Positions 16,203 through 55,311 of a stretch of DNA of 64,000 bases are shown here, piece after piece (the stretch's first letter is position 1; the number at the start of each line of letters is the position of its first letter). The position numbers were made by a program, and so were the translations under genes. The stretch spans positions 110,934 to 174,933 of the forward strand of contig JAOTOM010003662.1 of the NCBI GenBank assembly GCA_034440615.1, given 5' to 3'. A model generated the notes under the pieces. The model searched no databases. It was not told the origin of the DNA and saw nothing but the letters and a program-made list of their open reading frames with translations. Source of the stretch: Ashinkailepas kermadecensis (lineage: Eukaryota > Arthropoda > Thecostraca > Neolepadidae).

Positions 16203-16469
16203 ATGCGTACCCTCCTCCTTCTCACGCTGGCGCTGTGCGCACTAGTCATCGTTCAGGCCGATAACGACTGCAGAGATGATTGCGACGACGGGGACGATGA
16301 CCCGAGCTGCTGCACAATACCCACGTGTCCTGGTGGTGGCTGGTGCTGGGACGGAGATGACGATGATCGTGATGACTGCGACGACGATGACGATGACGGA
16401 TGCGGTGGTGGACGCCAGTGCTGCTACGATACGTGCACCAACTCCTACGTCTGCAGGTATCTGTGGTGA
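16203..16469 (+). CDS. Asp/Cys-rich secreted mini-protein 1 (88 aa)
   Basis: A single-exon reading frame starting MRTLLLLTLALCALVIVQA, a clear signal peptide (about residues 1-19/20). The mature part of about 68 residues is exceptionally acidic: runs CDDGDDD, WDGDDDDRDDCDDDDDDGC, and 12 Cys counting paired CC at about residues 36-37 and 72-73. It ends CRYLW. Compared with genes 3 and 4 it has an extra Cys-containing TIPTCPGGG insertion and a changed C-terminus. A TATA box sits 104 bp upstream. The codons before the stop contain CAG|GTATCT, a donor-like site kept in all copies, so the transcript might be spliced past this stop. I know no family with this pattern. Secreted Ca-binding, mineral-associated or defence peptide are all possible; none is shown. 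Confidence 0.8.
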   Translation: MRTLLLLTLALCALVIVQADNDCRDDCDDGDDDPSCCTIPTCPGGGWCWDGDDDDRDDCDDDDDDGCGGGRQCCYDTCTNSYVCRYLW

Positions 16470-17121
16470 GTTTAGCAAACAGGCGCTGTAGTGGTGATTT
16501 CTACAAACAGCCGCTATGGAAGTGATGTTTGTGAACAGTCGTTGGGGAGATGAGGTCTGCAAACAGCCGGCGTGAAGGTGAGGTATGCAAGCAGCCGGCG
16601 TGAAGGTGATTGCTATTGCAGCTTTTTCGATCGGCTTTTTCTGGAGGTAGCATAGGCTGCTTGAGGAGAAACGTTTGCACTGCAATGCATTGCAAAATAT
16701 CCCCATACTCAGTTCCAAAAAATGCTTTCTTAATGAATAGCTGAATTAGTGGAATTCTTAATTCATACATTTCCTCTTTATCTCCTTCAACTTCAATGAT
16801 GGCGTAACACATGGACATGTGCGGTGTTTCTTTACGACGTTTCTTTTTCTGGCTGCTGAGGCCATACCATAAGCTTTGCTACAACATTGGTGATGTCAAT
16901 TGCCGCAGTGCCATATACCAAGACAAGCTGCTTGACCATATCAATTCCGCTACAGAAAAAAATCAGGTGACACACATCCTCAAATGTCGCCGGCGGTCAA
17001 GTCTTCCGCAACGTGTAACAATCTGTTCTTGTTTTATCTTGTGCTTGATGGTGCTCCTAGTATTATTATGCCGTACCCATATCATCTCTTTGCATCACCA
17101 CACTGTTCGGACGTAGTTCTG

Positions 17122-17265
17122 ACCGCACTAGATTGTTTTCAGCGTGCCTGTAACGTCATAATGTTGCTCTGATTATCTGTATGACGTCCGTGAGCTGTTC
17201 CAACATTGTCTCCGACGTCAGTATGCTGCTCCAACTCTGCCTCTGTCGTCATTGCACTGTGTTCT
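17122..17265 (+). promoter_or_regulatory. 31-bp phased TGACGT array, module A left arm
   Basis: ACGTCA-type cores (reverse strand TGACGT) begin at 17153, 17184, 17215 and, degenerate (TCGTCA), at 17246: exact 31-bp steps. Each unit also carries a GCTGTTCCAAC-like word. Seen directly; role as CRE/ATF-type regulatory array is inference, and it may simply be a decayed minisatellite. Confidence 0.6.
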
Positions 17266-17716
17266 GAAATCAGTGGCTTCTCTGATGCTGCTTCTGATGT
17301 GAACAAAGTGTTCCAGTACTGTCTCTGACTCACTACAGATGACTGTCCTGACACTGTCTCTAACATCATACTCTTTCTTCCTCTCTCTATGGCAGGGACG
17401 ACTAGTTCTGAGTATGATCAGCTGATCTGGGAAGGACCCCGAAGGGCCCGGCATCACTCGTCGTCCCGTCTGCCCTCGGAGTGTTCGGCTGTGTTGGCGG
17501 CTGCACGATGCCCCGTCAATGACGTCACATCGCACTGAACTATAAACATAGCGTCCACGACCGCGAGCGTATGTGGCGGGAAATGAAGTGAGAGTATCCA
17601 AAAATGGCCATGCGTGCCGCGGTTACCACTTAGGACTTCGCCGATCTTTTACACTGCATGTAAACCTTCTGGTCGCTCTACACCTTGTATTCCATTGGTT
17701 TGTACACAATACACGA

Positions 17717-17768
17717 GTACCGACTACACGTGCACCGACCACACGTGCACCGACCACACGTGCACGAT
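17717..17768 (+). repeat. 15-bp E-box minisatellite, about 3 units (module A)
   Basis: Units CACACGTGCACCGAC each hold a CACGTG hexamer. The homologous array has about ten units at 34181-34325, about five (reversed) at 46150-46225 and about one at 48520-48545. Confidence 0.85.
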
Positions 17769-17769
17769 A

Positions 17770-19690
17770 GTGTACGATCATTGGGAAACAGAAGCAACGA
17801 GATCATCACAGTGAACGCACAATAAGCTAATATAATGATGATTTCACTTCACAGACCAAGTTGGGCACTTATCGACTTTCCGTCCCTGTCACACACCAGC
17901 ACCACCGCGAGGAACCAACCCGATCAACAACACATACATGTCACAATTATCTCGATACGAACAAAGCACCGGCAGGGATCTGCGATCAGGAAGACAACAA
18001 GGTTGCGCTCAGATACCGGGGTGAAACATGAGCATTGAATAAGAACGCATCAATGCAGCGGTAAATTTCCCGATTAACATACAGTTGAACATGATGGTTT
18101 GCACGTGACAGACTGTGTCAGCCGACCGTGGCGGGCTGTCACCCACCACAGGAGCCGCTCCGGCCCGATAATGAGCGTGGGTCACGGGAGGGGGTCGAAA
18201 CAGCTGTAGTGTCTTATGTTCGATGCCGGCAGTGGAACATCATGCTGTCAGTGATTGACGGAGTGTTAGGTCAGTTGTGGATGACGTCATCCAGTTGTGG
18301 ATGACGTCATGGTAGGTATGACGTCGGATGTGGACGTAGAAGTGTTGCGTGTGGGAGAGGTTGTTAGGTCGGCACTTAAACGGCGCTCCGGCCGTCTGTG
18401 GTGTTTCGCTCCGGCCGTCCGTGGCAAACGAGCTTTACCGCGCTTTTCATGAAACGAAACCGCTGAGTTGGGAGGGGCAAGGGTCAAAGTTGCACTTGGA
18501 CATACTGACTGACATTCACCTCAAAGGCCTTTTCTCCTGAAAGTGGCGTTCTTGGCTGAAAGAAGTTGAGCGATGGGAGGGGTTTACTGAACGCATACTG
18601 AATGGGCGACTTCCACTGGCGGATCTAGGCCACCGGTTTGGGGGGGGCCAACTTTCGGTTTTCGGCGTCAGCCCCTCCCCTCCCCTCCCCAAGTGGCGTA
18701 CGTAGGAATTGCGTCAGGGGTGGGGTCGAACGGATTTGAAGGGTGCCTATTCTCCCACTATTTTTGGTTAAAAGCACCGGATTTCGACCACTATTTGGCA
18801 AAGAGGAGCATTAAAAAAAACAAAAAAAAACAAAAACAAACACAAATTGACAACATAATTGCCTGTGTAGAGGCCCCAGCCTACCTCCACCGTTTCTATG
18901 TTACCGGATTTTTTTTCTTGTTTACCAAAACGTTCACGTTCACGTTCAACGTCTTGTACCACGTCAACGTTCGTGCACGTATACACACTGGCGGATCCGA
19001 TTTTGTCAACTCTTGCTGTAAGCAGAACTTGAGCAGCATGGAACCTTCGATGTGTGTCAGAATCTGGATCCGCCAGTGTACCTCCTCTTGCTATTCTTCT
19101 TGAGAAAAAATTCAGTCAATGTAGCCTGTCTTCATCTTAGCAACCCCAACACCAACATACGAAACATGCTGCTCAACTGGGCTCAACTGGTCACTCGCAC
19201 AAAACATCCTGTTCAAATGCCGCTTTCGAAATCTGGCTCACTGGGTCCGCTTGCCCGTTACTGGCTAAACAAACTTCATGAACCTATCTGACGAAGGAAT
19301 AAGGAAACTGCTGATTTCGTCATCTCTTGCTGTAAGCAGAACTTCAACAGCATAGAACCCTCGATGTGTCAGAATCTACTATCCTACCATATTGTGCTTC
19401 CAAACAATTATAACAAAATACCTTTAAAATTGGAGATTATTTCACCAGGAGCGCTATTTTTTTAACTCAGCAAAGGTTACTGCATTTTAATTCCGTTTAC
19501 TTTTGTTGATTTGGGGGGGGGAGCCAAAAGACACTATGGCCCCCTTTGAAGCGCTTGGGGGGGGACCATGGCCGGAATGCCCCCCCTGGATCCGCCAGTG
19601 GCGACTTGCACGTCCGGACTGGCGCCACCTTTTGATGGCGGGTGTGGGGACATGCTCTAATGCCCCCTGTATCCGCCCCTGTCCTGGTTA
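17770..19690. other. Module A interior, noncoding, part 1
   Basis: No gene. Contains tandem GATGACGTCAT sites at about 18283 and 18301 in an 18-bp duplication absent from module B, paired GCTCCGGCCGTC words near 18385-18420 and G/C runs near 18640. It is nearly identical to 48550-49390. Confidence 0.6.
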
Positions 19691-20090: not shown

Positions 20091-20172
20091 CTCGTGTGTC
20101 TTATTTTTATTGAATATTGTGCGATCCGCCTTTGAAGAACGTCTGCTTGAAAAATTGTAGGAAAATATGTGT

Positions 20173-20307
<135 letters not shown>

Positions 20308-20345
20308 CACCCATACGAACCTCCCGTGCGACCCTAATTGCGAGC

Positions 20346-20618
20346 ATGTTTGTTCACCATAAAACTGAGCTGGTGGCACAACAAAACAGATGGCAGCACT
20401 TGCGCTTCGCCAGGGGGCAGTACCTTCTACGGTTGTACCGCACAATGTACTCAGAGACTCTCGAGCATTATAAAGCAAAATAGAACACTGAAAAAAACGA
20501 TTTGAGAATATGTTCGTTAGGTTGCACACGAAAGGACAGTTATCGGACTCCGGTCTTGAATGAGTGCAGATTTTGGGCAGTGAGAGCCTATATTTTGCGG
20601 ATATATGTCATGGACCAA
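20346..20618 (+). pseudogene. Decayed exon-like block, module A copy
   Basis: A 91-codon frame reads MFVHHKTELVAQQNR, then LRFARGQYLLRLYRT, one TAG at 20481, then continues in frame to RAYILRIYVMDQ and a donor AA|GTAAGT at 20618/20619. Homologous blocks lie at 28103-28375 and 50267-50543. No known domain. The lesions differ between copies (see the A' copy), so the ancestral frame was open. Confidence 0.4.
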
Positions 20619-20619
20619 G

Positions 20620-23600
20620 TAAGTTTCTCAAGATTCATGCGTAATTATATCAAGGCATCGTGAGAAATAATGCAGGTCTCAAGATTTATCAAGTTGCAGC
20701 TACCATAAGAATGGATGCTGGACTCATCGTCCATTTTTTCCAACGGCGTCCGGCCGCCATTGCTGTGCAATCTTTCTGGAGTTACCCAGCTATAGCTTCA
20801 CAGTGACTGCGGTCCGAAGTTTGCTGATAATTATGGAGAACAATGGTAAGTCGAATTGCATGACATGATATTCTTTTTAAAATCGTATACAGCTGCTTAC
20901 TATGCTTCCCTGCATCATAGATATCGTGAACTGCAGGGCGGAAATTTCGAAAACGTAACAAAATGTTACGCCTTTAACAGCTACTAATAACTTTTGCAAC
21001 GACAGCTACAGTGAAGCCTTGTCATTTTGTGCAATCATGTTTTATTGCGCTCAAATGTATTAAACACCCTCTTCATTCGGGGTATAAACGTCTTCGGCAA
21101 ACAACACAGGAAATTTTCCGTCTGTACCCCGAACCGAAAAGCGGTATTCGGAATACGGCACGTATACCTGCGCCTGTTAAAGCTAGTGAAGTGTGTGTTG
21201 AATTCCGAACACGGGCTTAATAAACATTTTGAGCCCGCATGGTTGCACTCTGGAAGGGCGGATCCAGGAATTACCATTGGGGAAGGGGCGCATTTCCTCG
21301 GAGAGGTGCCTTCGGTGGACAAATTCGCTAAATGAGGGAGGGCACACTGAAGTTTACTGAACGGGTGCCGATCCAACCCAAAGGTGTGCATTTTCTCCTG
21401 CGCCGGTTCCCCAATGATTATTACTGAATACACTCTTGCCAAGTGCAGCCTGTGGGCTTAAAATGCTTAAGTTCGCATTCAGAATTCAACACACGCTTCA
21501 CTTGTTTTAACAGGTGCAGATACACGTGCGGTATTCCGAACACCGCTGTTCGGTTCGGGGAACACATGCAAAATCGGCTGTGCTATTTGCTGAGCAATTT
21601 TATACCCAAATAAAGACGGTGTTTAATACATTTCAGCGCAATAAAGCACGATTGCACAAAATACAACGCTTCACTGTAGCTCTTGTTGCACAAGTCAAAG
21701 TAGCCACTAAAGGCGTGACATTTTGATCATTCGAAATTGCTGCCATGCAGTTGACCAAATATATAATTCAAGAAAGCATATTAATCAGCTGTAGACAATT
21801 TGTAAAGGACTATAATGCCACGCGATTTAACTTACCATTGTTCTCCGTAATCATTTGGACACGTCGCACTGCAATCACTGTGAAGCTACGTCCCACTGTT
21901 GAATTATTAGGTGTCTTCCCCAAACCGCACATTAGCTGGGACTCTTACTGTCTTACATTTCTCGCACATTCTCACTGAACTATCTCCAGCTGCCGATTGG
22001 CACTATCCGACATTCCCGTCACGGTTGAAGACGGTTGGCGGTGGCGGAGACCATACATGTGGCAGTTTCTCCTCCGTTCCCCATGGGCTGTTCCAACATA
22101 TCTGTTTAGGGATAAAGGAGGCCCAGAGCGCGGCGTGGAGAACAATGGGCGAAGAAGTTGCGTTCTACCTGAGCTTGCTTTCGGCGTAAGTCATTGGTGC
22201 TCCCGGTGTCTCCTTTATGCCTGGGCAGGTGAACAGTATGCCCAAGCATATGTCGAAGTCCAGTATTGTTGTCTGCGAGTGACGTAGCGAATATGCAACC
22301 GGCGATGATATGTGATGCAATGACATGCCTGTTTCAATGGTACATTTTTGGAATATATTGAGCAAATAAGTAGAATGTTGTGATGCTCACAGCTCCTCTT
22401 CAATGACTTCAATGACATCGTCAGGATATTATCTTCTGAGGCAGCAATGAGCGGCATGTGTGGCATATGACGCCGGCGATAAGTGTGCTGCAATCTAGAG
22501 CTGTACATTAATAGTATGACATGTGATATTGGGAAAAGGCAACTGTTCATCTGTCCTATTTTAGCTGCGATGCCAATTTCAAACGTGCATTTAAACCTGG
22601 AGTAAATTTCATATGAGAACAGCAAGGGACATTTATGCCAATAACCACGCTCAGTTGAGGCATGCATTGCTGAAATGAAATCTGAAACTAGTCCTATTTG
22701 AGTAATAGCTTCGAATGTTGAAACCAATAGCTATTATCAAGTGAACTGGATTCAGGGAGAAAAAACCTGTTTGTTGAGAATTTGAAGTGGTTTTACACCA
22801 GTACATTTGCGACCCGCGAAGAGTCAGAGTGACAATTTGGACTGGTCTCAATTGAGGATGGCTGATAAAACTGAGACCAATTGCTATTCTCAGTCTCGCT
22901 AGTTTTATTTGAGACGAAAAATATTATCCTTCCTGAGTCTTGAAAGTGGTTTTGAATATATTTGTCACTTGATCTTGGTAATATTCATTTGTGATCATTT
23001 GTCACTTGATCTGTCACTTGGTCACTTGAATACATTTGTAAGTCTCAACGCACTGGAATTCTCGTCTGAGAATGGTGTTCTCAGCATATCACGGGCAGAC
23101 TGCTCGTTGTGTGTGGTTTGATTTGAATATGGAAAATGAGAACGTCTTCTAGTCTCAGAGATTATATAAGCTTCTCACATATTTATCAGTTAATATAATG
23201 TTTATAAATATACTGCGTCACTGTTTGCTGCTACCATTGACCTTTTTATACCACTGAATAAACGAAATAGCCGCATGTCGAACGTAATAGCCATCACGCC
23301 GAAATATAATTGCTGCAAGTCGATTGTAGTAGGCTCTAACTGTACGTCCCATTTCATGATTTGGTGCAGAGCCACCGCAAAAGTTTCAAAACAAATATCC
23401 GAAGAACACCAAAAAGAAATATGGTGTTCTGTGAGTTTCTTAGTGTTCTCTTGAGTGCCCCGAACTTCACCGGGGGATCCCACAAGGCCCTTGCCAAGGG
23501 CACAGCCTGTTGCTTCAGGTTGAAGAGGTTCCTAATAAGGATGCTGCAAGAGAAGCAACGCAATGACAGGACACGCGCGATAACATCGCCGGCCCAGCGC

Positions 23601-23960
23601 ATGCAGCCACCGTCCTGATGCTGACAACATGCAAGGTGCTGTGATCAAGAGATGCTCAAATCAAAATGCTCAAAATGCTGACAAGACAACGAAAACACTT
23701 TGTGCAGCAAAACATTGAGCTCTGATATTTCTATATGACAGCGCAAGGATCGGTCCCGAGCTCCTTCTCCAACTGCCAACGTCTCCCGGCCACCGCACAC
23801 CGCTTCCGCTATTCTGCCAGCTTGGTGTTGACCACTCGCTTGTTAAGATGCATGGAAAAGCACAACTTTGAAACCACAAGACTATGCAAAAGCACCACCT
23901 GCACGTTTCGGAACATTGGCAAATTCCACTCGTGCGCTCAAGCCACTGGAATTGACCAAA
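20620..23960. other. Module A interior, noncoding, part 2
   Basis: Nearly identical to 50544-53790. Overlapping short frames exist on both strands but none has a domain. Contains imperfect inverted words around GGTATTCGGAATACGGCACG (21141) and GTGCGGTATTCCGAACACCG (21526), which form a large inverted repeat of about 170 bp arms (21010-21215 versus 21480-21690). Confidence 0.55.
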
Positions 23961-24378
23961 AGTTTTCAAAGAAGTGTTACAGGTCAGCTAACTCTTAAAT
24001 GGAAACAACGTCACGAATGGGCCATCTATGGAGGCTTCTCACATCGTGTCCTGCCACATACCCCCGAAGCCGTCGACGGAACGTTTATTGGTCAGTGCGA
24101 TGTGACGTCATTCACGTGGTATCGTGCAGCAGCCAACACAGCCGACCATTCCGGGGATGGACGAGACGACGGTGATGCCGGACCCATCTGGGTCCTCCCA
24201 GATCAGCTGATTATCTTCGGAACTAATCGTCCCTGTCATAGAGAGAGGAACAGAAAGAATGAGTATGGTAGAGACAGCTTCAGGACACCCCTCTGGTGTG
24301 CGTCAGAGACAGTGCTGGAACACTTTGTTGGCATCGGAAGCAGCATCAGAAAAGCCCACCGATTTTATAAGAGTCCGA

Positions 24379-24570
24379 TGACGTCAGAAGCAAAGATGGA
24401 GCCGCACACTGACGTAGGACACACAGTCGGAACAGCTCACTGACGTCCGAAGGAGAGTCGGAACAGCTCACTAACGTCATACACAGAATCAAAGCAGTTG
24501 TATGACGTTACAGGCTCCGTCAGAGCAATCCAGTGCGGTAAGAACTATGTTAGAGCAGTGTAGTGATGCA
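24379..24570 (-). promoter_or_regulatory. 31-bp phased TGACGT array, module A right arm
   Basis: TGACGT or one-base variants begin at 24379, 24410, 24441, 24472 (TAACGT) and 24503, exact 31-bp steps. Positions 24534 and 24564 hold more degenerate versions. Intervening words GGAACAGCTCAC recur. The array lies downstream of the pseudogene copy, mirroring gene 1. Confidence 0.65.
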
Positions 24571-25240
24571 AATAGATGACAGGAGAGCGGCTGAATAATC
24601 TTAAGAGCACCATCAGAACACACGAATAATACCAAACTGGGCGTTAGACGCAGAGGAAACCGTGGCCAGTCGGGGACATTTGAGGATGTGTGTCGGCTGT
24701 TTTTCCTGTAGCACATGTGATGTAGTCACGGCATGTCCTAGTATATGGCACTACGGCAATTGGCTTCATAAATCACATAACAAAGCTTAATATTCGGCAT
24801 AAGCAGCGAGGAAAAAACGTCATAACTAAAAGTGAATAAAGGAAAATTCTGAAGCGGCAGAGGTACATGTGCTACGCCATAATTGAAGTTGATAGGGATA
24901 CAGAAGAAATGCTATGAATTAATAAAGTAGTTTATCATTTATTCAATGTGAAAGCTTCTTTTTAGCTGAGTAAGGGGTATTTTGCATTCAATGCAGTGCA
25001 GACATTTCCTTTTCGGCAGCCTCTGTCACCTTAAGAACCAGCTTACCGGAAGTACTGCAGCAGCACTCACCTTCACACCGGCTGCTTGCAAGCCTCACCT
25101 TCACGATGGCTTTTTACAGACCTCATCTCCACACCGGCTGTTCACAAACATCACTTCAATAGCGGCTATTTGTAGAACTTACCACTCCAGCGGCTGCTTG
25201 TAGAACTCAACACTCCAGCGGCCGTTTGCACAACTCAACA

Positions 25241-25482
25241 TTACCTGCAGGCGTAGGAGCTGGAGCAACTATCGTAGGAGCACTGACGTCCACCACCGCA
25301 TCCGTCATCGTCATCGTCGTCACAGTCCTCACGGTCATCGTCATCTCCGTCCCAGCACCAGGGTTGTTGGCAGCAGTTCGAGTCGTCGTCCCCATCGTCG
25401 CAATCGTCGCAGTCGTCATCGGCATGCACGATGACTACAGCGCACATCCCAGCGCCAACGTGAGAAGCAGCAGGGTACGCAT
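25241..25482 (-). pseudogene. Asp/Cys-rich mini-protein 2, frameshifted copy
   Basis: The gene starts at 25482 (ATGCGTACC) like its paralogues. In the signal-peptide region it has one base fewer than gene 4 (CTGGGATGTGC instead of CTGGTGATGTGC), which shifts the frame into a stop after about 15 codons. The mature region remains open and nearly identical to gene 4 (DDDCDDCDDGDDDSNCCQQ, then WDGDDDDREDCDDDDDDGC). The last codons also differ: the CRYC end has become CR followed by TAA. Its TATA box is changed to TATGTATT (25608-25601). A longer frame from 25516 runs through but lacks a signal peptide. Confidence 0.85.
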
Positions 25483-25619
25483 GGTCAGTGGTCAGGTAGC
25501 ACGCGGACTGTGACAAGGCTGCCGGTGGGCTATGGTTCGGGTACCGCTTGGCTCTGGACGGAGGTGGCGATTGGTTCTGCTACTGTTGGCTGCTGTCTTC
25601 AATACATACCTTTGTCGAG

Positions 25620-26630
25620 GCCTGTCTAGTACGTCTAGGCGGCGGCGGTTTTCGGGGCCACGGTGCAATGTCACTGAAGACAATGAGACTCTACTGCAGA
25701 TTGAAAAGGGAAAGGCGGAACATTTTCCTCATGATGGGCAGGATACAATGTTTCACTCGTGATATCCGCAAAGCTAATTATGTACTGCCAAGGAATCAAA
25801 TAAAAAAGGTAGTGAGAACAGCTGTATAATTAAATTTGACAAGTCCGAACCTGTTGGCCTGGAAGTTGTTCTCAACATGTTACATAATAAAAGTGTTTGC
25901 TATATTAGACCGCCATGTCTCGGGATTCTTTCCACCCACCCTAAAGGCTTTCCGCGGACAGTGCAAAAAAAAACGGCACACCCAGAAATCTAGCATACCT
26001 GTTTCCACATCCATTGACATCTGTGAAGACGTTGAGTTCAGGTCATCAGGTCATCCACGGCCACCGAGTTAGTCAAAGTCAAATGAGGGCACCTCCAAAA
26101 AAGTTCAACCAGTCGTTTGGCGTTCGCGGATGAAGGTAATTGAATGAAACTTGCAACGTTTACTTATCATTATGAACGCACCAAACAGCATCGGAGGAAT
26201 TGTTTAATTTTGTGTGTTTTTGTGTCTTATTTGTGTTGGATATTTGCCAATTAGGGGTGAAAATCCCAGATTCTAGCTAACTTAAGCTCTTTTATGGGGG
26301 AACGTATATTTAAAACAATGCTATTCGTTACGCTCTTCCAATTAGAAAAAAAAAACGAAAACTCTAAATTTAGAAAACTGAAAACAAAGATTCTTTTCTT
26401 TTTGGGTGAGCATACATTTTCAGACCATGGTCGATTTCGCCTTCCTGTTTGATTCCAAATAAATTTGTGTTTAATATCTGAGCCGGAAAAACATCGCACT
26501 CGGGCCCGACAAATTCACGCCAGAGACTCGAAATACATGCGTCGTGGCTTACAAAGTTTTCTCGGGACTCGAACAAATTCAAGCCTCTTAAAAATGCAAT
26601 ACATTCAAGCCTGCGTCTTACCTTGGCGCC
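25620..26630. other. Module A right flank with a partial TTAA-type element
   Basis: 25900-26480 holds a third, truncated copy of the TTAA-type element: CTTTCCGCGGACAG, GGTCACC-like GGGCACCTCCAAAAAAGTTC, GATTCTAGCTAAC and CATGGTCGATTTCGCC. The matching copy in module B is 55730-56310. No gene seen. Confidence 0.6.
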
Positions 26631-27107
26631 GTAACATCTGACGAACCCCCCGGTGTGTCAATGAACCCAGTGGTGACCCAATAATTGACCACAAAAAACC
26701 ATGCGTTATTCGAGATGAAGGACACCTGGTCTGCATTAGCCAATGGTGACATAGCAAACAAAACCCTGACGCGATATAGCAAGTTCAAAATGAAAAGATA
26801 AATAATGGCGAAAATGTAAAATGAGTCGTCGGTGAAAAGACCGTTCGGTGGCCAATGCGCAGTTGGCGATGGTGGTCGCTGGGAAATAGCGAGCTCATGA
26901 CGTCACAGTTCACGAAGCGCCAACAGACTCGCGGCACAGCTGCACGGACGTGGCCCTGAGTAACTGCGCGCCGGGGTGTGTCAGTGCACGGCACGGCTGT
27001 GGTTCGTGACTCAGACGCCCCACCGAGCGCCTCCCCCCCCCCCCACCTGCCCCCTCGAGTCAGCTGACGCCGGACACGAGGATAAACAATATATCTGACC
27101 GGATGCG
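26631..27107. other. Right end of module A
   Basis: Same sequence as 56450-56935 up to the word ATATATCTGACCGGATGCG, where the two copies diverge: module A joins a new partial module, module B joins the upstream region of the secreted acidic protein gene. A CGAGTCAGCTGACG and a TATA-like CAATATAT lie just before the breakpoint. Confidence 0.7.
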
Positions 27108-32395: not shown

Positions 32396-32403
32396 TATAT
32401 ATT
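32396..32403 (+). promoter_or_regulatory. TATA box of peptide gene 3
   Basis: TATATATT 104 bp upstream of the ATG, in the same context as gene 1 (ACCTTGGGCA upstream, ATTGGAAG-CATCGTCACC downstream). Confidence 0.75.
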
Positions 32404-32499: not shown

Positions 32500-32754
32500 A
32501 TGCGTACCCTGCTGCTTCTCACGCTGGCGCTGGTGATGTGCGCCGTAGTCATCGTGCATGCCGATGACGACTGCGACGATTGCGACGATGGGGACGACGA
32601 CTCAAGGTGCTGCCAAAAACCCTCGGGCTGGTGCTGGGACGGAGATGACGATGACCGTGAGGACTGCGACGACGATGACGATGACGGATGCGGTCGTAAA
32701 CGCTGGTGCTGCTACGACAGTTGCTCCCGCTCCTACGCCTGCAGGTATTGTTGA
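32500..32754 (+). CDS. Asp/Cys-rich secreted mini-protein 3 (84 aa)
   Basis: Starts MRTLLLLTLALVMCAVVIVHA (signal peptide, about 21 residues), then a 63-residue mature part with 23 Asp and 12 Cys by count: CDDCDDGDDDSRCC, WCWDGDDDDREDCDDDDDDGC, then WCCYDSC and a final CRYC. Ala before the acidic start fits signal-peptidase cleavage. In place of GGGRQC of genes 2 and 4 it has GRKRWCC, a small basic patch. TATA box 104 bp upstream. The end TGCAGGTATTGTTGA retains a donor-like CAG|GTA. The leader is nearly identical to gene 4 while the mature part differs, a pattern seen in secreted peptide families. Function unknown. Confidence 0.82.
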   Translation: MRTLLLLTLALVMCAVVIVHADDDCDDCDDGDDDSRCCQKPSGWCWDGDDDDREDCDDDDDDGCGRKRWCCYDSCSRSYACRYC

Positions 32755-33010
32755 GTTGTGCAAACAGCCGCTGGAGTGGTGAGTTCCAGAAACAGCCGCT
32801 GGAGTGGTGCGTTCTACAAACAACCGCTGCAGTGGTGAGTTCTACAAACAGCCGATGGAGTGTTGAGTTCTACAAACAACCGCTGCAGTGGTGAGTTCTA
32901 CAAACAGCCGATGGAGTGGTGAGTTCTACACACAGCCGCTGCAGGGGTGAGTTCTACAAACAGCTGCTGCAGGGGTGAGTTCTACAAACAGCCGCTATTG
33001 AAGTGATGTT
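32755..33010 (+). repeat. GAGTTCTACAAACAGCCGCTG tandem array downstream of gene 3
   Basis: About nine units of roughly 30-34 bp (GTGAGTTCTACAAACAGCCG with CTGGAGTG or CTGCAGGG). Other arms have only two or three units (16490-16530, 25180-25240 reversed, 55000-55060 reversed). Each unit contains GGTGAGTTC, resembling a splice donor. Confidence 0.8.
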
Positions 33011-34400: not shown

Positions 34401-34880
34401 GTTCATCATCTACTGCCTGTCAACAACTGCACAACTCAGGACCAGCAACTCAACTCATCTCCAGTCATCTCTACTGGTCTGCTATCTTCAAGGCCCTATT
34501 CAACTTTCGCTTCCCGCCTGTCCTCTTCAAGCCAACTCTACCATTCCCCTAACATTCCCTTCCGTCTCTATCCTCGCATCGCTATAACCCCTTGTTCTAC
34601 CTTGTTCTACCACTCAACCTTCCACATCCACACATCCATCATAGACCACAAAACAACACGAACGATTACTCGGCATAACTCGCAGCAACAGCCGATATCA
34701 CCAACACGGCGGCAGGCGGTTCAAACCCACAACAACAAGAATGAGGCCGAAAGCGACCCAGGTGAGGACAACAAGTTCATTGAATGAATTCAAGCTTCTT
34801 GGATCATTCTTGTTTAGCCCGCTTGACAGTCAGCGAAACAGTGTGGAGTTAAAAACTCTTTTCCACGTTAATGAAATTAC
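34401..34880. other. Intergenic DNA
   Basis: CT-rich leader near 34480-34620, no gene supported. Confidence 0.4.
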
Positions 34881-34884
34881 TCAT

Positions 34885-35480
34885 TTTATTGTGGTCGGGA
34901 GGCGGGAAGCTACCACGGGAAATGACTCATTTTACCGTGGTGGGGATGCGGGAAGCTACCACGGGAAATGACTCATTTTACCGTGGTGGGGAGGCGGGAA
35001 GCTACCACAGAAAATGTCTCATTTTACCGTGGTGGGGATGCGGGAAGCTACCATGGGAAATGTCTCATTTTACCGTCGTGGGGAGGCGGGAAGCTACCAC
35101 GGGAAATGTCTCATTTTACCGTTGTGGGTATGCGGGAAGCTACCACAGGAATTGACTCATTTTACCGTGGTGGGGATACGGGAAGCTACCACAGGAAATG
35201 TCTCATTTTACCGTGGTGGGGAGGCGGGAAGCTACCACAGGAAATGTCTCATTTTACCGTGGTGGGGAGGCGGGAAGCTACCACGGGAAATGTCTCAATT
35301 TACCGTGGTTGGCAGGCGGGAAGCTACCACAGGAAATGTCTCATTTTACCTTTGTTGGGGAGGCGGGAAGCTACCACAGGAAATGTCTCATTTTACCGTG
35401 GTGGGGAGGCGGGAAGTCACCACGGGAAATGTCCCATTTTACCGTCGTGGGGAGGCGGGAAGCTACCACGGAAAATGTCT
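34885..35480 (+). repeat. 46-bp minisatellite, about 13 units
   Basis: Unit: AAATGTCTCATTTTACCGTG then GTGGGGAGGCGGGAAGCTAC then CACGGG. 46 is not a multiple of three, so the frame rotates each unit. The unit lacks stops in all three forward frames, which explains three long overlapping ORFs (34968-35522 and others). No protein is inferred. Confidence 0.95.
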
Positions 35481-36231: not shown

Positions 36232-37630
36232 CTTAGACATAAAGACATAAAAGATCAGTGCAACTATGAGCCACAAGGGCCCTTCTTGGTTGCACTCTGT
36301 ACACTGAACCAGTTGTCCATCAAATGTGTTGATCAACTCTCCCTGGAATACAGAAAAACAAGCCCCCTATTCTTATAATGATTGTCTATGCTGTTCTTAA
36401 AGATGTTCAGTGTGTTGCTACTGACAATGGTTTATGGCAGCTGGTTCCAGTGTTCTACTACCCTGTTGGTGAAGAAGGACTGTCTTAACCTTGTCCTGCT
36501 GTGATTAACTTTAATTTTGAATGGATGACCTCTAATTGCATCATTTCTGTTAAATTCAAACAGTTCCCTGAGATAACCCTGTTCCTGACCATGAACAAAT
36601 TTAAAGATCTCGACGAGATCTCCCCTCAGCCTTCTATATCTAAGTGAAAACATATTCGATTTCTTCAATCTTTCCTCATATGCCAGGTTGCCCATACCAT
36701 TCACCATTTGTGTTGCCCTCTTTTGCACTCTCTCTAAAAGCCAACAATCTTTTTCATAACTAGGGGACCAAGCTTGGACACAATATTCCAGATGTTGCCT
36801 GACATATGTACAATAAAGCTTCCTGATGACTTCCTCACTTTTGTATGATACATTCCTATTTATTGCCCCAAGCATTCTTAGTGCCTTCTTCCTGGCTGCT
36901 TTCGTCTGTTCTGATGCCCCCAATTTCGTGTTAAAAATAACACCTAAGTCCTTCTCCTGCTGAGTCACAGATAGTACTTGGCCACCCATCAAGTATGGAG
37001 CCTTGATATGCTGCCTACCTACATGCATGATTTTGCACTTATCAAAATTAAATTTCATTTGCCATTTTTCGGACCACTTCACAAGCTCGTCTAAGTCTTT
37101 CTGCAGCAAGACCTGCTCATTGTGCCCTGTTATTGCCCTAAAGACCTTCAAATCATGTGTAAATTTCAAAACCTTACTGCTTAGGCCACTTTCAATGTTA
37201 TTTACAAACAAAATGAACAATAGTGGTCCCAGTACTGACCCTTGGGGGACTCCACTAAGAACATTTTGCCATGATGATTTTGTACCATTTAGCATCACTC
37301 TCTGCTGTCTATCTGAAAGCCACAACCCTATCCATTTTAGGATGTTACCCACAATACCATGGGCCTGAAGCTGCATCATTAACCGTTTATGAGGTACCTT
37401 GTCAAAAGCCTTGCTAAAGTCAAGATATGCTACATCAACCTGATTTCCCTTATCAAATTGTTCTGTAGCAAAATTAAAAAAGTCCAAGAGATTTGTAAGA
37501 CACGATCGCCCTTTTCTAAACCCATGTTGAGTATCTTGAATCACTCTGTTTCCTTCCAGAAAACAAACTATTTTATCCGTGATAATTGATTCAAGTACCT
37601 TGCAGACTAGTGATGTGAGGCTTACTGCTG
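36232..37630 (-). mobile_element. CR1/L2-like non-LTR retrotransposon, 5'-truncated, inactive
   Basis: A 370-codon minus-strand frame (37544-36432), open upstream to about 37625 (SLTSLVCKVLES), carries reverse transcriptase motifs in order: QHGFRKGRSC, motif A YLDFSKAFDKVPH, motif B SGVPQGSVLGPLLF, then NFDKCK and LGVIF. At motif C the expected F/YADD is FTHD, so a catalytic aspartate is lost. A stop follows WNQLP, but family-like peptide continues to about 36300. The 3' end has two TTTATGTC octamers (36231-36248), typical of CR1/L2-type ends. A piece of the same 3' end is at 43620-43692. Confidence 0.92.
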
Positions 37631-37925
37631 TATCTCTGACGGTGTATCGTATGCTTTCCTCTTTGGTTTAGACTGTTTCTACTAGTGTACAGCGATGCGT
37701 GCTCTTCCACTGTTTGTACCTAATCTCATTAATCGTGTTATCATCTGGGGTTAAATCACCTTCACTTTCTCCTCCTGATTTGTCCGCGATTGTAATCCTC
37801 AGAAAGTTCTTCACCCCGTCTTCACCAGGGTAGTCCTCACAGTTGTGCATCATGCTGTATCGTCAGAGCTGTATCGTCAATGCTGTATCGTCAGAGATAC
37901 AGCTACTGCTGTATCTCTGACGGCA
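37631..37925. repeat. CTGTATCGTCAGAG repeats and short palindrome
   Basis: The word GCTGTATC(T/G)TC(A/T)GA occurs at about 37627, 37852, 37868, 37881 and 37908. GTCAGAGATACAGC (37890-37903) and GCTGTATCTCTGAC (37908-37921) are perfect inverted copies around TACT. Confidence 0.75.
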
Positions 37926-44640: not shown

Positions 44641-44809
44641 GTCACTCCGGCAGCGGTGCAAGCTGTGGATACTTTCCTTATCACTCATCTGTACTTCCCA
44701 ACTATCGCTCTCTGCAGGCTTCCTGATCCTTTGCAAATATTAGCTGATTATCTCGCTATATGGCGAGTCAGTTTTCCTGGCATCAATACCCACGAGTACA
44801 GGGAATAAA

Positions 44810-45035: not shown

Positions 45036-45039
45036 TTAA

Positions 45040-46075: not shown

Positions 46076-46079
46076 CACC

Positions 46080-47241: not shown

Positions 47242-47959
47242 GCAGGTATCTGTGGTGGGTTTAGCAAACAGGGGCTGTAGTGGTGAGTTCTACAAACAGC
47301 CGCTATGGAAGTGATGTTTGTGAACAGTCGGTGGGGAGGTGAGGTCTGCAAGCAACCAGCGTGAATGTGATACTTGCAAACAGCCGGTGTGAAGGTGTGT
47401 GCTATTGCAGGCTTTCCTCTCGGCTGGGTCCGGAGGTAACAGAGGCTGCCTCAGGAGAAATGTTTGCACTGCATTGCATTGCAAAATATCCCCATACTCA
47501 GTTCCAAAAATGCTTTCTTCATGAATAAATTATGTAGTGGAATTCTTAAGTCAAACGTTTCTTCATTATTCCCTTCAACTTCAATGATGGCGTAACACAT
47601 GGACATCTGCCGTGTTCTTCATAGGTTTCCCTCATTCACCCTAAGTGACGAAGTTTCATTTTCTGGCTGCTAAAGCCGTACCATCAGCTGTGCTATATGA
47701 TTGGTGATGCCAATTGCCGTTGTGCTATATACTAGGACAACCTGCTTGAACACATGAATTGCGCTACTTAAAAAAAACGGCTGACACACATCCTGAAAAG
47801 TCGCCGGCTGGTCAAAGCTTCCGCAACGTGTAACAATGTGTTTGTTTTTTCGTGTGTTTGATGGTCTCCTAATAACATTATGCCGGTCCGATATCTTCTC
47901 TTTGCATCACCACACTGTTCGGGCGTAGTTACGACCGCACTGGGTTGCTTTGAGCGTGC

Positions 47960-48075
47960 CTGTAACGTCATAATGTTGCTCTGATTCTCTGTATGACGTC
48001 CGTGAGCTGTTCCGACATTGTCTCCGACGTCAGTACGCTGCTCCAACTCTGCTTCTGTCGTCATTGTACTGTGTT
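47960..48075 (+). promoter_or_regulatory. 31-bp phased TGACGT array, module B left arm
   Basis: Collinear with 17153-17250: ACGTCA, ACGTCC, ACGTCA, TCGTCA cores at 31-bp steps (starting about 47968). The arm no longer has a gene. Confidence 0.6.
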
Positions 48076-49384
48076 CTGAAATCAGTGGCTTCTCTGATGC
48101 TGCTTCTGATGTAAACAAAGTGTTCCAGTACTGTCTCTGACTCACTCCAGAGGACTGTCCTGACACCGTCTCTAACATCATACTCTTTCTTCCTCTCTCT
48201 ATGACAGGGACGACTAGTTCTGAGTATGATCAGCTGATCTGGGAAGGACACCGATGGGCGCGGCATCACTCGTCGTCCCGTCTGCCCTTGGAGTGGTTGG
48301 CTGTGTTGGCAGCTGCACGATGCCCCGTCAATGACGTCACATCACACTGACCAATAAACAGCGTCGACGACCTCGAGCGTATGTGGCGAGAAATGAAGTG
48401 AAAGCATCCCAAAATGGCCAAGTGTGCCGCGGTTTCCATTTAGGATTCCGCTGATCTTTTACACTGCATGGAAACCTTCTGGTCGCTCTACACCTTGCAT
48501 TCCGTTGGTTTGTACACAATGCACGTGCACCGACCAAACGTGCACGATAGTGTACCATCATTGGGAAACAGAAGCAACGAGATCATCACAGTGAACGCAC
48601 AATAAGCTAATATAATGATGATTTCACTTCACAGACCAAGTTGGGCACCTATCGACTTTCCGTCCCTGACACACACCAGCACCACCGCGAGGAACCAATC
48701 CGATCAACAACACATACATGTCACAATTATCTCGATACGAACAAATCACCGGCAGGGATCTGCGATCAGGAAGACAACAAGTTTGCGCTCAGATACCGGG
48801 GTGAAACATGAGCATTGAAAATGAACGCATCAATGCAGCGGTAAATTTCCCGATTAACATACAGTTGAACATGGTGGTTTGCACGTGACAGACTGTCAGC
48901 CGACCGTGGCGGGCTGTCACCCACCACAGGAGGCGCTCCGGACCGATAATGAGCGTGGGTCCCGGGAGGTGGTCGAAACAGCTGTAGTGTCTTATGTTCG
49001 ATGCCGGCAGTGGAACATCATGCTGTCAGTGATTGACGGAGTGTTAGGTCAGTTGTGGATGGGGTAGGTATGACGTCGGATGTGGATGTAGAAGTGTTGC
49101 GTGTGGGAGAGGGTGTTAGGTCGGCAATTAAACGACGCTCCGGCCGTCTGTGGTGTTTCGCTCCGGCCGTCCGTGGCACACGAGCTTTACCGCGCTTTTC
49201 ACGAAACGAATCCGCTGGGTTGGGAGGGGTAGGGGTCAAGGATGCACTCGAACATATGACTGACATTCGTCTCAAAGGCCTTCCCCCCCCCCCCCTGAAA
49301 GTGGCGTTCTTGGCTGACAGAATTTGAACGAGGGGAGCGGTTTACTGAACGCATACTGAATGCGCGACTTCCACGTCCGGACGG

Positions 49385-49762: not shown

Positions 49763-50266
49763 CCCATCTCTGGTCAGGAGGCATCGTCACTGGCTAGAGC
49801 CGTTCCGGTTAGGAGCCCGCTTGGACAGAGGTCGACTTGGAGGCTCCACTGGCCTGTGGCCATGGTCGATTGTGAAGGGCCACTTGGTCAAGAACTCTTC
49901 TGACAAGTGACCCGTTTGGTCAGAGATTCCATTCTGACTAGGTCAGGGTCTATCCCAATTGGTCAGGATCCCTCCGGTCAGGGGCCTTCTTGTCTGGGCC
50001 CTTCTTGTCTGGAGTCCCGTACCAAGGGGACTGTTCTGGTCATGTGTCCTTTGATCAGATAGCCGCACTTGCTGGGGAGCTTCGCTTGTCAGGGATCCCG
50101 CTGGGCACTGGTACTTTTGGTCAAATGGTACATCTGGCTAGGAGAACCTCGTGTGTCTTATTTTTATTGAATATTGTGCGATCCGCCTTTGAAGAACGTC
50201 TGCTTGAAAAATTGTAGGAAAATATGTGCCTTCACCCATACGAACCTCCCGTGCGACCCTAATTGC

Positions 50267-50543
50267 GAGCATGTTTGTTCACCATAAAACTGAGCTGGTG
50301 GCACAACAAAACAGATGGCAGCACTTGCGCTTCGCCAGGGGGCAGTACCTTCTACGGTTGTACCGCACAATGTACTCAGAGACTCTCGAGCATTATAAAG
50401 CAAAATAGAACACTGAAAAAAACGATTGGAGAATATGTTCGTTAGGGTGCACACGAAAGGACAGTTATCGGACTCCGGTCTTGAATGAGTGCAGATTTTG
50501 GGCAGTGAGAGCCTATATTTTGCGGATATATGTCATGGACCAA
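50267..50543 (+). pseudogene. Decayed exon-like block, module B copy
   Basis: Same block as 20346-20618, with the same TAG and an AA|GTAAGT donor-like end. See module A copy. Confidence 0.4.
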
Positions 50544-53500
50544 GTAAGTTTCTCAAGATTCATGCGTAATTATATCAAGGCATCGTGAGAAATAATGCAG
50601 GTCTCAAGATTTATCAGTTGCAGTACCATAAGAATGGATGCTGGACTCATCGTCCATTTTTCCAACGGCGTCGGCCGCCATTGCTGTGCAATCTTTCTGG
50701 AGTTACCCAGCTATAGCTTCACAGTGACTGCGGTCCGAAGTGTGCTGATAATTATGGAGAACAATGGTAAGTCGAATTGCATGACATGATATTCTTTTTA
50801 AATTCGTATACAGCTGCTTACTATGCTTCCCTGCATCATAGATATCGTGAACTGCAGGGCGGAAATTTCGAAAACGTAACAAAATGTTACGCCTTTAACA
50901 GCTACTAATAACTTGTGCAACGACAGCTACAGTGAAGCCTTGTCATTTTGTGCAATCATGTTTTATTGGGCTCAAATGTATTAAACACCATCTTCATTCG
51001 GGGTATAAACGTCTTCGGCAAACAACACAGGACATTTTCCGTCTGTACCCCGAACCGAAAAGCGGTATTCGGAATACGGCACGCATACCTGCGCCTGTTA
51101 AAGCTAGTGAAGTGTGTGTTGAATTCCGAACACGGGCTTAATAAACATTTTGAGCCCGCATGGTTGCACTCTGGAAGGGCGGATCCAGGAATTATCACTG
51201 GGGAAGGGGCGCATTTCCTCGGAGAGGTGCCTTCGGTGGACAAATTCGCTAAATGAGGGAGGGCACACTGAAGTTTACTGAAGGGGTGCCGATCCAACCC
51301 AAAGGGGTGCATTTTCTACTGCGCCGGTTCCCCAATGATTATTACTGAATCCACTCTTGCCAAGTGCAGCCTGTGGGCTTAACATGCTTAAGTTCGCGTT
51401 CAGAATTCAACACACACTTCACTTGTTTTAACAGGTGCAGATACACGTGCGGTATTCCGAACACCGCTGTTCGGTTCGGGGAACACATGCAAAATCGGCT
51501 GTGCTATTTGCTGAGCAATTTTATACCCAAATAAAGACGGTGTTTAATACATTTCAGCGCAATAAAGCACGATTGCACAAAATACAACGCTTCACTGTAG
51601 CTGTTGTTGCACAAGTCAAAGTAGCCACTAAAGGCGTGACATTTTGATCATTCGAAATTGCTGCCATGCAGTTGACCAAATATATAATTCAAGAAAGCAT
51701 ATTAATCAGCTGTAGACAATTTGTAAAGGACTATAATGCCACGCGATTTAACTTACCATTGTTCTCCGTAATCATTTGGACACGTCGGACTGCAATCACT
51801 GTGAAACTACGTCCCACTGTTGAATTATTAGGTGTCTTCCCCAAACCGCACATTAGCTGGGACTCTTACTGTCTTACATTTCTCGCACATTCTCACTGAA
51901 CTATCTCCAGCTGCCGATTGGCACTATCCGACATTCCCGCCACGGTTGAAGACGGTTGGCGGTGGCGGAGACCATACATGTGGCAGTTTCTCCTCCGTTC
52001 CCCATGGGCTGTTCCAACATATCTGTTTGTGGATAAAGGAGGCCCAGAGCGCGGCGTGGAGAACAATGGGCGAAGAAGTTGCGTTCTACCTGAGCTTGCT
52101 TTCGGCGTAAGTCATTGGTGCTCCCGGTGTCTCCTTTATGCCTGGGCAGGTGAACAGTATGCCCAAGCATATGTCGAAGTCCAGTATTGTTGTCTGCGAG
52201 TGACGTAGCGATTATGCAACCGGCGATGATATGTGATGCAATGACATGCCTGTTTCAATGGTACATTTTTGGAATATATTGAGCAAATAAGTAGAATGTT
52301 GTGATGCTCACAGCTCCTCTTCAATGACTTCGATGGCCATCGTCAAGATATTATCTTCTGAGGCAGCAATGAGCGGCATGTGTGGCATATGACGCCGGCG
52401 ATAAGTGTGCTGCACTCTAGAGCTGTACATTCAAAGTATGACATGTGATACTGGGAAAAGGCAACTGTTCATCTGTCCTATTTTAGCTGCGATGACAATT
52501 TCAAACGTGCATTTAAACCTGGAGTAAATTTCATATGAGAACAGCAAGGGACATTTATGCCAATAACCACTCTCAGTTGAGGAATGCATTACTGAAATGA
52601 AATCTGAAACTAGTCCTATTTGGGTTATTATCAAGTGAACTGGATTCAGGGAGAAAAAACCTGTTTGTTGAGAATTTGAAGTGGTTTTACACCACTACAT
52701 TTGCGACTCACGAAGAGTCAGAGTGACAATTTGGACTGGTCTCAATTGAGGATGGCTGATCAAATTCAGACCAATTGCTATTCTCAGTCTCGCTAGTTTC
52801 ATTTGAGACGAAAAATATTATCCTTCCTGAGTCTTGAAAGTGGTTTCACTTGAATACATTTGTAAGTCTCAACGCACTGGAATTATCGTCTGAGAATGGT
52901 GTTCTCAGCATATCACGGGCAGTCTGCTCGTTGTGTGTGGTTTGATTTGAATATGGAAAATGAGAACGTCTTCTAGTCTCAGAGATTATATAAGCTTCTC
53001 ACATTTGTATCAGTTAATATAATGTTTATAAATATACTGCGTGACTGTTTGCTACTACCATTGACCTTTTTATACCACTGAATAAACGAAATAGCCGCAT
53101 GTCGAACGTAATAGCCATCACGCCGAAATATAATTGCTGCAAGTCGATTGTAGTAGGCTCTAACTGTACGTCCCATTTCATGATTTGGTGCAGAGCCACC
53201 GCAAAAGTTTCAAAACAAATATCCGAAGAACACCAAAAAGAAATTTGGTGTTATGTGAGTTTCTTAGTGTTCTCTTGAGTGCCCCCAACTTCACTTGGGG
53301 ATCCCACAAGGCCCTTGCCAAGGGCACAGCCTGTTGCTTCAGGTTGAAGAGGTTCCTAATAATGATGCTGCAAGAGAAGCAACGCAATGACAGGACACGC
53401 GCGATAACATCGCCAGCCCAGCGCATACAGCCACCGTCCTGATGCTCACAACATGCCAGACGCTGTGATCAAGAGATGCTCAAATCAAAATGCTCAAAAT

Positions 53501-54204
53501 GCTGACAAGACAACAAAAACACTTTGTGCAGCAAGACATTGAGCTCTGATATTTCTATATGACAGCGCAAGGATCGGTCCCGAGCTACTTCTCCAACTGC
53601 CAACGTCGCCCGACCACCGCACACCGCTTCCGCTATTCTGCCAGCTTGGCGTTGACCTCTCGCTTGGTGGGATGCATGGAAAAGCACAACTTTGAAACCA
53701 CAAGACTATGCAAAAGCACCACCTGCACGTTTCGGAACATTGGCAAATTCCACTCGTCCGCTCAAGCCACTGGAATTGACCAAAAGTTTTCAAAGAAGTG
53801 TTACAGGTCAGCTAACTCCTAAATGGAAACAACGTCACGAATGGGCCATCTATGGAGGCTTCCACATCGTGTCCTGCCACATGCCCCCGAAGCCGTCGAC
53901 GGAACGTTTATTGGTCAGTGCGATGTGACGTCATTCACGTGGCATCGCGCAGCAGCCAACACAGCCGACCATTCCGGGGATGGACGAGACGACGGCTGAC
54001 GCCGGACCCATCTGGGTCCTCCCAGATCAGCTGATTATATTCGGAACTAATCGTCCCTGTCATAGAGAGAGGAACAGAAAGAATGAGTATGTTAGAGACA
54101 GCGTCAGTATAGCTCTCTAGTGTGCGTCAGAGACAGTGCTGGAACACTTTGTTGGCATCGGAAGCAGCATCAGAAAAGCCCACCGATTTTATAGGAGTCC
54201 GATG

Positions 54205-54400
54205 ACGTCAGAAGCAAAGATGGAGCCGCACACTGACGTAGGAGGCACAGTCGGAACAGCTCACTGACGTCCGAAGGAGAGTCAGAACAGCTCACTAACG
54301 TCATACACAGAATCAAAGCAGTTGTATGACGTTACAGGCACCGTCAGAGCAATCCACTGCGGTAAGAACTACGTCAGAACAGTGTAGTGATGCAAATAGA
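54205..54400 (-). promoter_or_regulatory. 31-bp phased TGACGT array, module B right arm
   Basis: Collinear with 24379-24570; TGACGT cores at 31-bp steps from GATGACGTCAGAAGC (54203) through TATGACGTTAC (about 54328). Lies downstream of gene 4. Confidence 0.6.
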
Positions 54401-55062
54401 TGACAACCGAATGGCTTAATGATCTTAAAAGCACCATCAGAACACACGAATAAGACCAAACTGGGCGTTAGACGTAGTGGAAACCGTGGCCAGTCGGCGA
54501 CATTTGAGAAGGTGTGTCAGTTGTTTTTCCTGTAGCACATGTGATGCAGTCACGGCAACTTGTCCTAGTATATGGCACTACGGCAATTGGCTTCATCAAT
54601 CACATAACAAAGCTTAAGATACGGCATAAGCAGCGAGGAAAAAACGTCATAACTAAAAGTGAGTAAAGGAAAATTATGAAGCGGCAGAGGTACATGTGCT
54701 ACGCCATAATTGAAGTTGATAGGGATACAGAAGAAATGCTATGAATTAATAATGTAGTTTATCATTTATTCAAAGTGAAAGCATCTTTTTAGCTGAGTAA
54801 GGGGATATTTTGCATTCAATACAGTGCAGACATTTCGTTTTCGGCAGCCTCTGTCACCTTCAGAACCAGCTGACCGGAAGTACTGCAGCAGCACTCACCT
54901 TCACCCCGCCTGCTTGCAAGCCTCACCTTCACGATGGCTTTTTACAGACCTCATCTCCACACCGACTGTTCACAAGCATCACTTCAATAGCGGCTATTTG
55001 TAGAACTTACCACTGCAGCGGCTGTTTGTAGAACTCACCACTCCAGCGGCTGTTTGCACAAC

Positions 55063-55311
55063 TCAACAATACCTGCAGACGTGGGAGTTGGTGCAACTAT
55101 CGTAGGAGCACTGACGTCCACCACCGCATCCGTCATCGTCATCGTCGTCGCAGTCCTCACGGTCATCGTCATCTCCGTCCCAGCACCAGGATTGTTGGCA
55201 GCAGTTCGAGTCGTCGTCCCCATCGTCGCAATCGTCGCAGTCGTCATCGGCATGCACGATGACTACAGCGCACATCACCAGCGCCAGCGTGAGAAGCAAC
55301 AGGGTACGCAT
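55063..55311 (-). CDS. Asp/Cys-rich secreted mini-protein 4 (82 aa)
   Basis: Starts at 55311 with the same 21-residue leader as gene 3 (MRTLLLLTLALVMCAVVIVH). Mature part: CDDCDDGDDDSNCCQQ, WCWDGDDDDREDCDDDDDDGC, GGGRQCSYDSC, final CRYC; 11 Cys because the paired CC near residue 66 of other members is CS. An intact TATATATT is at 55437-55430. It is the undamaged sister of pseudogene 2: frame, terminal CRYC and TATA are all kept, so pseudogenisation in module A came after the duplication or gene 4 was restored by conversion. Function unknown. Confidence 0.82.
   Translation of the reverse strand: MRTLLLLTLALVMCAVVIVHADDDCDDCDDGDDDSNCCQQSWCWDGDDDDREDCDDDDDDGCGGGRQCSYDSCTNSHVCRYC

Follow-up and report, generated by a model that had tools for sequence, protein, structure and literature searches.

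Duplicated genes for small aspartate- and cysteine-rich proteins with a crustin-like cysteine layout in Ashinkailepas kermadecensis, candidate binders of divalent cations

Type I crustins consist of a Cys-rich region that is followed by a WAP four-disulfide core. Here we analyze a stretch of 64,000 nucleotides (nt) from Ashinkailepas kermadecensis (contig JAOTOM010003662.1, positions 110,934 to 174,933; the whole stretch is called the window below), which carries three intact genes and one broken copy of a family of small, predicted-secreted proteins that are rich in aspartate (Asp) and cysteine (Cys) and whose Cys layout parallels that of type I crustins. The layout of crustins has been summarized, from 34 Pacific white shrimp genes, by the formula CX2-3CX7-13CC for the Cys-rich region and CX5-9CX6-31CX5CX5-7CCX3-4CX3-6C for the WAP core (PMC7401287). 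Within this core the first Cys (C1) is predicted to pair with the sixth (C6) (PMC11678330, PMC8877177), and another WAP pair, C2 and C7, is mutated in three shrimp crustins (PMC7401287). Crustins are generally described as cationic (PMC11678330, PMC8877177), although the published isoelectric points (pI) of shrimp crustins run from 4.15 to 9.69, so that acidity itself is known among them and a cationic character is not strictly defining. WAP proteins have also been connected with minerals. Specifically, perlwapin, a WAP protein, inhibits the growth of calcium carbonate (CaCO3) (cited in PMC4519255, PMC7401287), a role in calcium deposition has been proposed for molt-regulated shrimp crustins (PMC7401287), and an Asp-rich protein occurs together with a protein of five WAP domains in a barnacle shell proteome (PMC4519255).

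The reading that we favor, at roughly even odds (a probability of about 0.5), is that the intact genes encode small predicted-secreted proteins built on what is likely a crustin-derived scaffold, with Asp-filled loops as putative binding sites for calcium or other divalent cations. Cation binding is proposed because of the composition of these proteins, the near invariance of their Asp residues and two known chemistries, namely the action of WAP proteins on CaCO3 and the poly-Asp proteins of shells. The copies concerned are the following:

16203..16469, forward strand: gene 1, an intact open reading frame (ORF) of 88 amino acids (aa); its mature part has 12 Cys and it is the sole copy with a WAP-type C1
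16260..16466, forward strand: mature part of gene 1, 69 aa with 33% Asp, the signal peptide boundary being set by eye
25241..25482, reverse strand: broken copy (pseudogene), which has lost 1 base in the part for the signal peptide and ends at a premature TAA
32500..32754, forward strand: gene 2, an intact ORF of 84 aa; its mature part has 12 Cys, a GRKR basic patch and an extra C-terminal Cys, and is without C1
55063..55311, reverse strand: gene 3, an intact ORF of 82 aa; its mature part has 11 Cys, is without C1 and C6 (the CC pair reads CS) and has an extra C-terminal Cys

An earlier note on this DNA had described here three intact genes and a pseudogene of an undescribed family of secreted-type, Asp/Cys-rich proteins, duplicated and diversified, with a mature part that is about one-third Asp and has 11-12 Cys. 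The three ORFs and the pseudogene are where it placed them, and the mature parts of genes 1, 2 and 3, which we cut ourselves at a boundary chosen by eye, have 69, 63 and 61 aa with 23 Asp in each (33-38%, in runs of up to 6) and 12, 12 and 11 Cys, respectively. All three copies begin with a signal-peptide-like stretch, again read by eye, that has a basic residue, a hydrophobic run and a V-x-A end, and the copies lie in duplicated units, so the general description is upheld. A detail that needs correcting is the small basic patch assigned to gene 3, since the GRKR motif is in the gene at 32500 and not in that at 55063. Over the mature part gene 2 is 76% and gene 3 is 82% identical to gene 1, and in each copy 22 of the 23 Asp stand in columns that hold Asp in all three copies. 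The computed pI is 4.05, which is the floor of the program, indicating strongly acidic proteins that do not share the cationic character of crustins. In gene 3 and the pseudogene a Ser replaces one Cys of the CC pair, and the stop codon of the pseudogene comes two residues earlier than in the intact copies. Finally, a donor-like CAG/GTA can be read in all four copies at the C-terminal Cys-Arg; given this site near the end of the coding sequence (CDS), the last coding residues are uncertain and may be spliced. With respect to crustin gene structure, there was no crustin-gene paper, judged by title, among the literature matches listed.

The three intact ORFs look like real genes on the basis of in-frame indels, conservation of the CDS and an upstream TATATAT, with dN/dS (the ratio of replacement to silent substitution rates) being neutral on this point. 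The upstream elements are:

16099..16105, forward strand: TATATAT, 104 bp upstream of the gene 1 ATG, putative promoter element
32396..32402, forward strand: TATATAT, 104 bp upstream of the gene 2 ATG, putative promoter element
55431..55437, reverse strand: TATATAT, 126 bp upstream of the gene 3 ATG, putative promoter element
25602..25608, reverse strand: TATGTAT, at the place upstream of the pseudogene that corresponds to the TATATAT of the intact copies

The intact copies differ by five distinct indels in the CDS (6, 3, 12, 3 and 6 nt, the third being 18 nt against gene 3), all of them in frame, whereas downstream of the stop codon only 10 of 51 indels in the same three pairs are multiples of three, the two sets having been taken from separate alignments. 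Identity is likewise higher in the CDS than downstream in every intact pair (219/252 versus 839/1117 for genes 1 and 2, 219/246 versus 926/1197 for genes 1 and 3, and 225/246 versus 917/1169 for genes 2 and 3; Fisher p 3e-5 to 8e-7). No such contrast is observed between the pseudogene and gene 3, where the CDS matches at 265/276 positions and the downstream DNA at 1195/1252.

The strength of selection differs between parts of the protein. The values of dN/dS for the three intact pairs are 0.125/0.273, 0.104/0.257 and 0.085/0.114, giving ratios of ~0.46, 0.40 and 0.75. Because of these ratios, and because the excess of third-position changes is not significant in the intact-pair comparisons, constraint on the whole protein appears to be mild only. 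Selection appears clearer on the Asp residues. Specifically, Asp codons are replaced at 2/24, 2/24 and 0/23 positions in the pairs of genes 1 and 2, 1 and 3, and 2 and 3, respectively, compared with 12/27, 7/25 and 10/26 for other non-Cys codons (p 0.005, 0.14 and 0.0008), with the caution that these pairwise tests, having sequences in common, are not independent.

We compared the Cys layout of the copies with that of crustins. Gene 1 reads C-x3-C-x8-CC-x4-C-x5-C-x10-C-x7-C-x5-CC-x3-C-x5-C (intervals 3, 8, 0, 4, 5, 10, 7, 5, 0, 3, 5), which agrees with the published crustin formula at 9 of 10 fixed intervals, the C3-C4 interval being the miss and the link between the two parts of the formula being left free. 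The chance of one miss or fewer when 12 Cys are placed randomly in 69 residues is at most 5.4e-6. The Cys-rich region of the formula is present in all three copies, as C-x3-C-x8-CC in gene 1 and as C-x2-C-x8-CC in genes 2 and 3. For comparison we used 100 crustin-type proteins, mostly from decapods and mantis shrimps, that were fetched by a generic shrimp-type query. The 12-Cys layout occurs in 96 of these 100 proteins; 93 of the 96 start with intervals 3, 8, 0, and the ending 5, 0, 3, 5 is common to all 96; gene 1 has both. The nearest layout is that of P0092, a Penaeus indicus crustin-like peptide, which also has the 4-residue link between the CC pair and C1 that is seen in gene 1, and a BLASTP comparison of gene 1 with the Penaeus indicus crustin-like peptide gave 12/25 identical residues in the C-terminal segment.

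The similarity extends beyond Cys positions when the copies are taken as a profile. In hhalign, 23 columns from the C-terminal part of the three-copy profile align with 24 crustin columns at a probability of 80%, an E value of 1.4e-5 and 52% identity; a repeat against the 96 signatures gave a probability of 87%, with a score that was reached by none of 200 column shuffles and none of 200 shuffles in which the Cys were kept fixed. For single copies (genes 1, 2 and 3) against the crustin profile, full shuffles reached the observed score in 0, 1 and 0 of 1000 cases (0, 11 and 0 with bias correction off), and Cys-fixed shuffles in 6, 107 and 0 of 1000 (12, 234 and 1 with bias correction off). The pattern of lost Cys offers a further hint. 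C1 is absent in gene 2, gene 3 and the pseudogene, and C6 has become Ser in gene 3 and the pseudogene; after loss of C1, loss of its predicted partner C6 as seen in gene 3 would be expected under the WAP pairing scheme.

Several results weigh against a crustin origin and against the cation-binding reading that builds on it. The WAP part of the formula fits none of the copies fully: gene 1 has the eight Cys but a C3-C4 interval of 7 rather than 5, gene 2 is without C1, and gene 3 is without C1 and C6. In all 96 crustin signatures C1-C2 is 6 and C3-C4 is 5, whereas the values in gene 1 are 5 and 7. Gene 2 keeps C6 without its C1, and the extra C-terminal Cys of genes 2 and 3 leaves gene 3 with an odd number of Cys. 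Because Cys-fixed shuffles reach its score in 107 of 1000 cases, gene 2 alone is without support for crustin similarity beyond Cys, and the N-terminal part of the copies contributes only 1-2.5 bits against the crustin profile, with the signal sitting in the C-terminal stretch. The Pfam WAP model (PF00095) gave no match at E ≤ 10 for any copy, whether the full sequence, fragments of it or a version with most Asp masked was used, while it scored 24.4 and 26.8 bits on two crustin controls. AlphaFold2, run on an alignment of the three copies and again on one enlarged by 17 of the 100 crustins, returned a low mean confidence (predicted local distance difference test of 48.2 and 48.8 for the two alignments); both models have a C-terminal hairpin at 52-57/62-67, and their Foldseek search against the PDB gave nothing better than E = 1.0, for a spider knottin. 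Since Pfam WAP finds the crustin controls but none of the copies, we use the term crustin-like for the copies and refrain from classing them as crustins.

If the favored reading is right, a crustin-type scaffold would have been inherited and its loops then filled with Asp. The disulfides are predicted to hold the Asp clusters C-DDGDDD-xx-C, WDGDDDD and C-DDDDDDG-C as rigid carboxylate patches, with Ca2+ or ions like it as the predicted ligands. Such binding would most likely serve to control mineral or calcium at the surface of the cuticle or shell, with metal-dependent defence as the second choice. In its most specific form, which we put forward tentatively and with somewhat less than even odds, the proposal is of a crustin rebuilt as a poly-aspartate calcium cage, in which the disulfide core is kept and most loops are Asp, giving a rigid mini-protein for mineral control. 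Such a cage would unite two mineral chemistries, a WAP core and poly-Asp, within ~65 residues. It would also mean that the filling of its loops with a single residue turned an immune scaffold to metal or mineral chemistry. The role in calcification that has been suggested for crustins or WAP proteins, in shrimp molting and the barnacle shell, could then be tested on peptides of a size suited to synthesis, and nature would offer a model for small cation binders that are locked by disulfides.

A different use of the same proteins, which we regard as somewhat unlikely, is in defence, as crustin-like anionic peptides that would capture zinc, calcium or copper with their Asp clusters and affect microbes either by direct action or by depriving them of metal. 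Crustins are antibacterial (PMC11678330), an array of clustered, duplicating copies with one of them broken would fit immune genes, and the Asp-only surfactant-associated anionic peptides (SAAP) bind zinc and depend on this metal to act against one bacterium (PMC8267837). However, the same peptides were inactive on the other microbes tested and did not disrupt membranes, according to the cited part of that work (PMC8267837), and the usual description of crustins as cationic (PMC11678330, PMC8877177) does not suit proteins of this acidity.

The copies may instead form a family of their own, rich in Asp and Cys and without a known parent, in which case the resemblance to crustins would be convergence of a short Cys segment. 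In support of this is the outcome of the searches for relatives, in which a profile of the three copies run against 5.8 billion proteins gave 0 of 1619 scored candidates at E ≤ 10, no PDB chain was matched, and no Pfam family, WAP included, reached its cut-off on any of the three proteins. Gene 3 gave the best Pfam results below cut-off, CD20-like at E 0.052 and Madanin, a thrombin inhibitor of ticks, at E 0.13; these were set aside as reflecting hydrophobic and acidic composition, as were Madanin on gene 2 (1.4), Cwf15 on gene 1 (3.8) and a mucin domain on one piece (4.9). NCBIfam gave no match for the copies and none for two crustin controls, and is uninformative; in viral contigs there were 56 pattern matches, none of which was confirmed. 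An independent origin would also agree with the absence of similarity beyond Cys in gene 2 and with a profile match that spans only 23 columns. It would leave to coincidence a framework fit with a chance of ~5e-6 and a profile score that none of the 200 Cys-fixed shuffles reached, and we think it unlikely. The claim of an undescribed family consequently stands in part: there is no close sequence relative in these searches, but the Cys framework parallels that of type I crustins.

Less likely again is a double knottin, that is, two tandem cystine knots unrelated to crustins to which Asp loops were added later. Both halves of gene 1 read C-C-CC-C-C, which fits a broad knottin spacing rule, and the best fold match of one of the AlphaFold2 models, the non-significant spider knottin at E = 1.0, is of this class. 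This spacing rule has a chance of 5.8e-4 and predicts much less than the relaxed crustin formula because it covers ~400 times more spacing combinations. Nor does it account for the resemblance to crustin residues in the C-terminal stretch. One Cys of the first C-C-CC-C-C half is absent in genes 2 and 3, and the Cys lost in gene 3 would strand its partner in a knot. A relation to LDL-receptor class A modules, in which calcium is caged by Asp between disulfides, was rejected as mostly compositional and is highly improbable, since C-DDGDDD-xx-C has the 8-residue spacing of the generic module consensus but Pfam Ldl_recept_a was not reported for the copies (61.7 bits on a consensus control) and Cys-fixed shuffles reached the score in 100, 31 and 23 of 500 cases for genes 1, 2 and 3.

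The window as a whole is rich in repeats, with a long interspersed nuclear element (LINE) reverse transcriptase, tandem arrays and segmental copies, and the genes are located inside such segmental copies:

20304..27107, no strand: segmental duplication block with the pseudogene, a 95-97% match to 50229-56935 in two main pieces
50229..56935, no strand: segmental duplication block with gene 3, partner of 20304-27107
47242..49374, forward strand: copy (87.6%) of the gene 1 downstream DNA at 16453-18616; the similarity starts in the last codons and the gene itself is absent

The duplication of ~6.7 kb that relates the pseudogene to gene 3 appears to be recent. Directly before the block at 20304-27107 lies a 122-base poly-A tract (20182-20303). 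At the stop codon of gene 2 there is a 28-bp tandem array of 8.8 copies (32752-32996), and shorter 28-bp arrays follow the other copies. Two further arrays have units of 46 bp (34873-35481, 13.2 copies) and 39 bp (57991-58942, 25.6 copies); the latter has long open frames on both strands and is likely no gene. The LINE reverse transcriptase ORF (36435-37667, reverse strand; Pfam RVT_1, 103.5 bits) is matched at E ≤ 1e-10 by 7290 of 7976 scored proteins. Among the matches listed the nearest are 88% and 86% identical, and those listed with an organism are mostly from birds and turtles, together with one isopod record flagged as a contaminant and one bacterial label. Two ORFs on the forward strand match no Pfam family, one whose GEDSEES repeat is acidic and whose C-terminal end contains Cys (60692-61558) and one with a signal-peptide-like start followed by an Arg/Cys-rich segment (57167-57634). 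Finally, ARAGORN predicts a tRNA-Ala (CGC) at 1651-1726 on the forward strand (Rfam tRNA, 34.5 bits at 1658-1718), which may be a gene or a tRNA-derived repeat.

The Asp runs of the family, which the earlier note could match to no known peptide family, do have parallels in described proteins. They are present in the bivalve shell proteins Aspein and Asprich and in the barnacle Asp-rich shell protein (PMC4519255), as well as in the Asp-only SAAP, which have runs of the DDDDDD type and bind zinc and copper (PMC8267837). These parallels go no further than the runs. Aspein is 57.6% Asp, nearly all of it in poly-Asp blocks, and a Cys framework is not described for these shell proteins in the cited part of the source, while the SAAP are 7-residue sheep lung peptides without Cys (PMC8267837). 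Perlwapin and the barnacle five-WAP protein share with our copies the kind of core under discussion, one that has been proposed or shown to act on mineral (PMC4519255, PMC7401287); they differ in having three or five WAP domains, and Asp-filled loops are not described for them in the cited passages. An Asp-filled crustin was not named in the titles or abstract starts of the literature matches listed, which cover open-licence papers. Type I crustins share the signal-peptide-like start as judged by eye, the C-x3-C-x8-CC of gene 1 and the C-terminal C-x5-CC-[YF]D-x-C-x5-C-[KR]. They differ in having a C3-C4 loop of 5 rather than the 7 of gene 1, a WAP domain that Pfam does not detect here, the C1 that genes 2 and 3 are without and the C6 that gene 3 is without. 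The largest difference is in Asp, which makes up at most 10.5% of the 96 crustin signatures, with a longest run of 2, compared with 33-38% and runs of 6 in the copies described here, so that, judged from their sequences, the Asp-filled loops would be a new chemistry relative to crustins.

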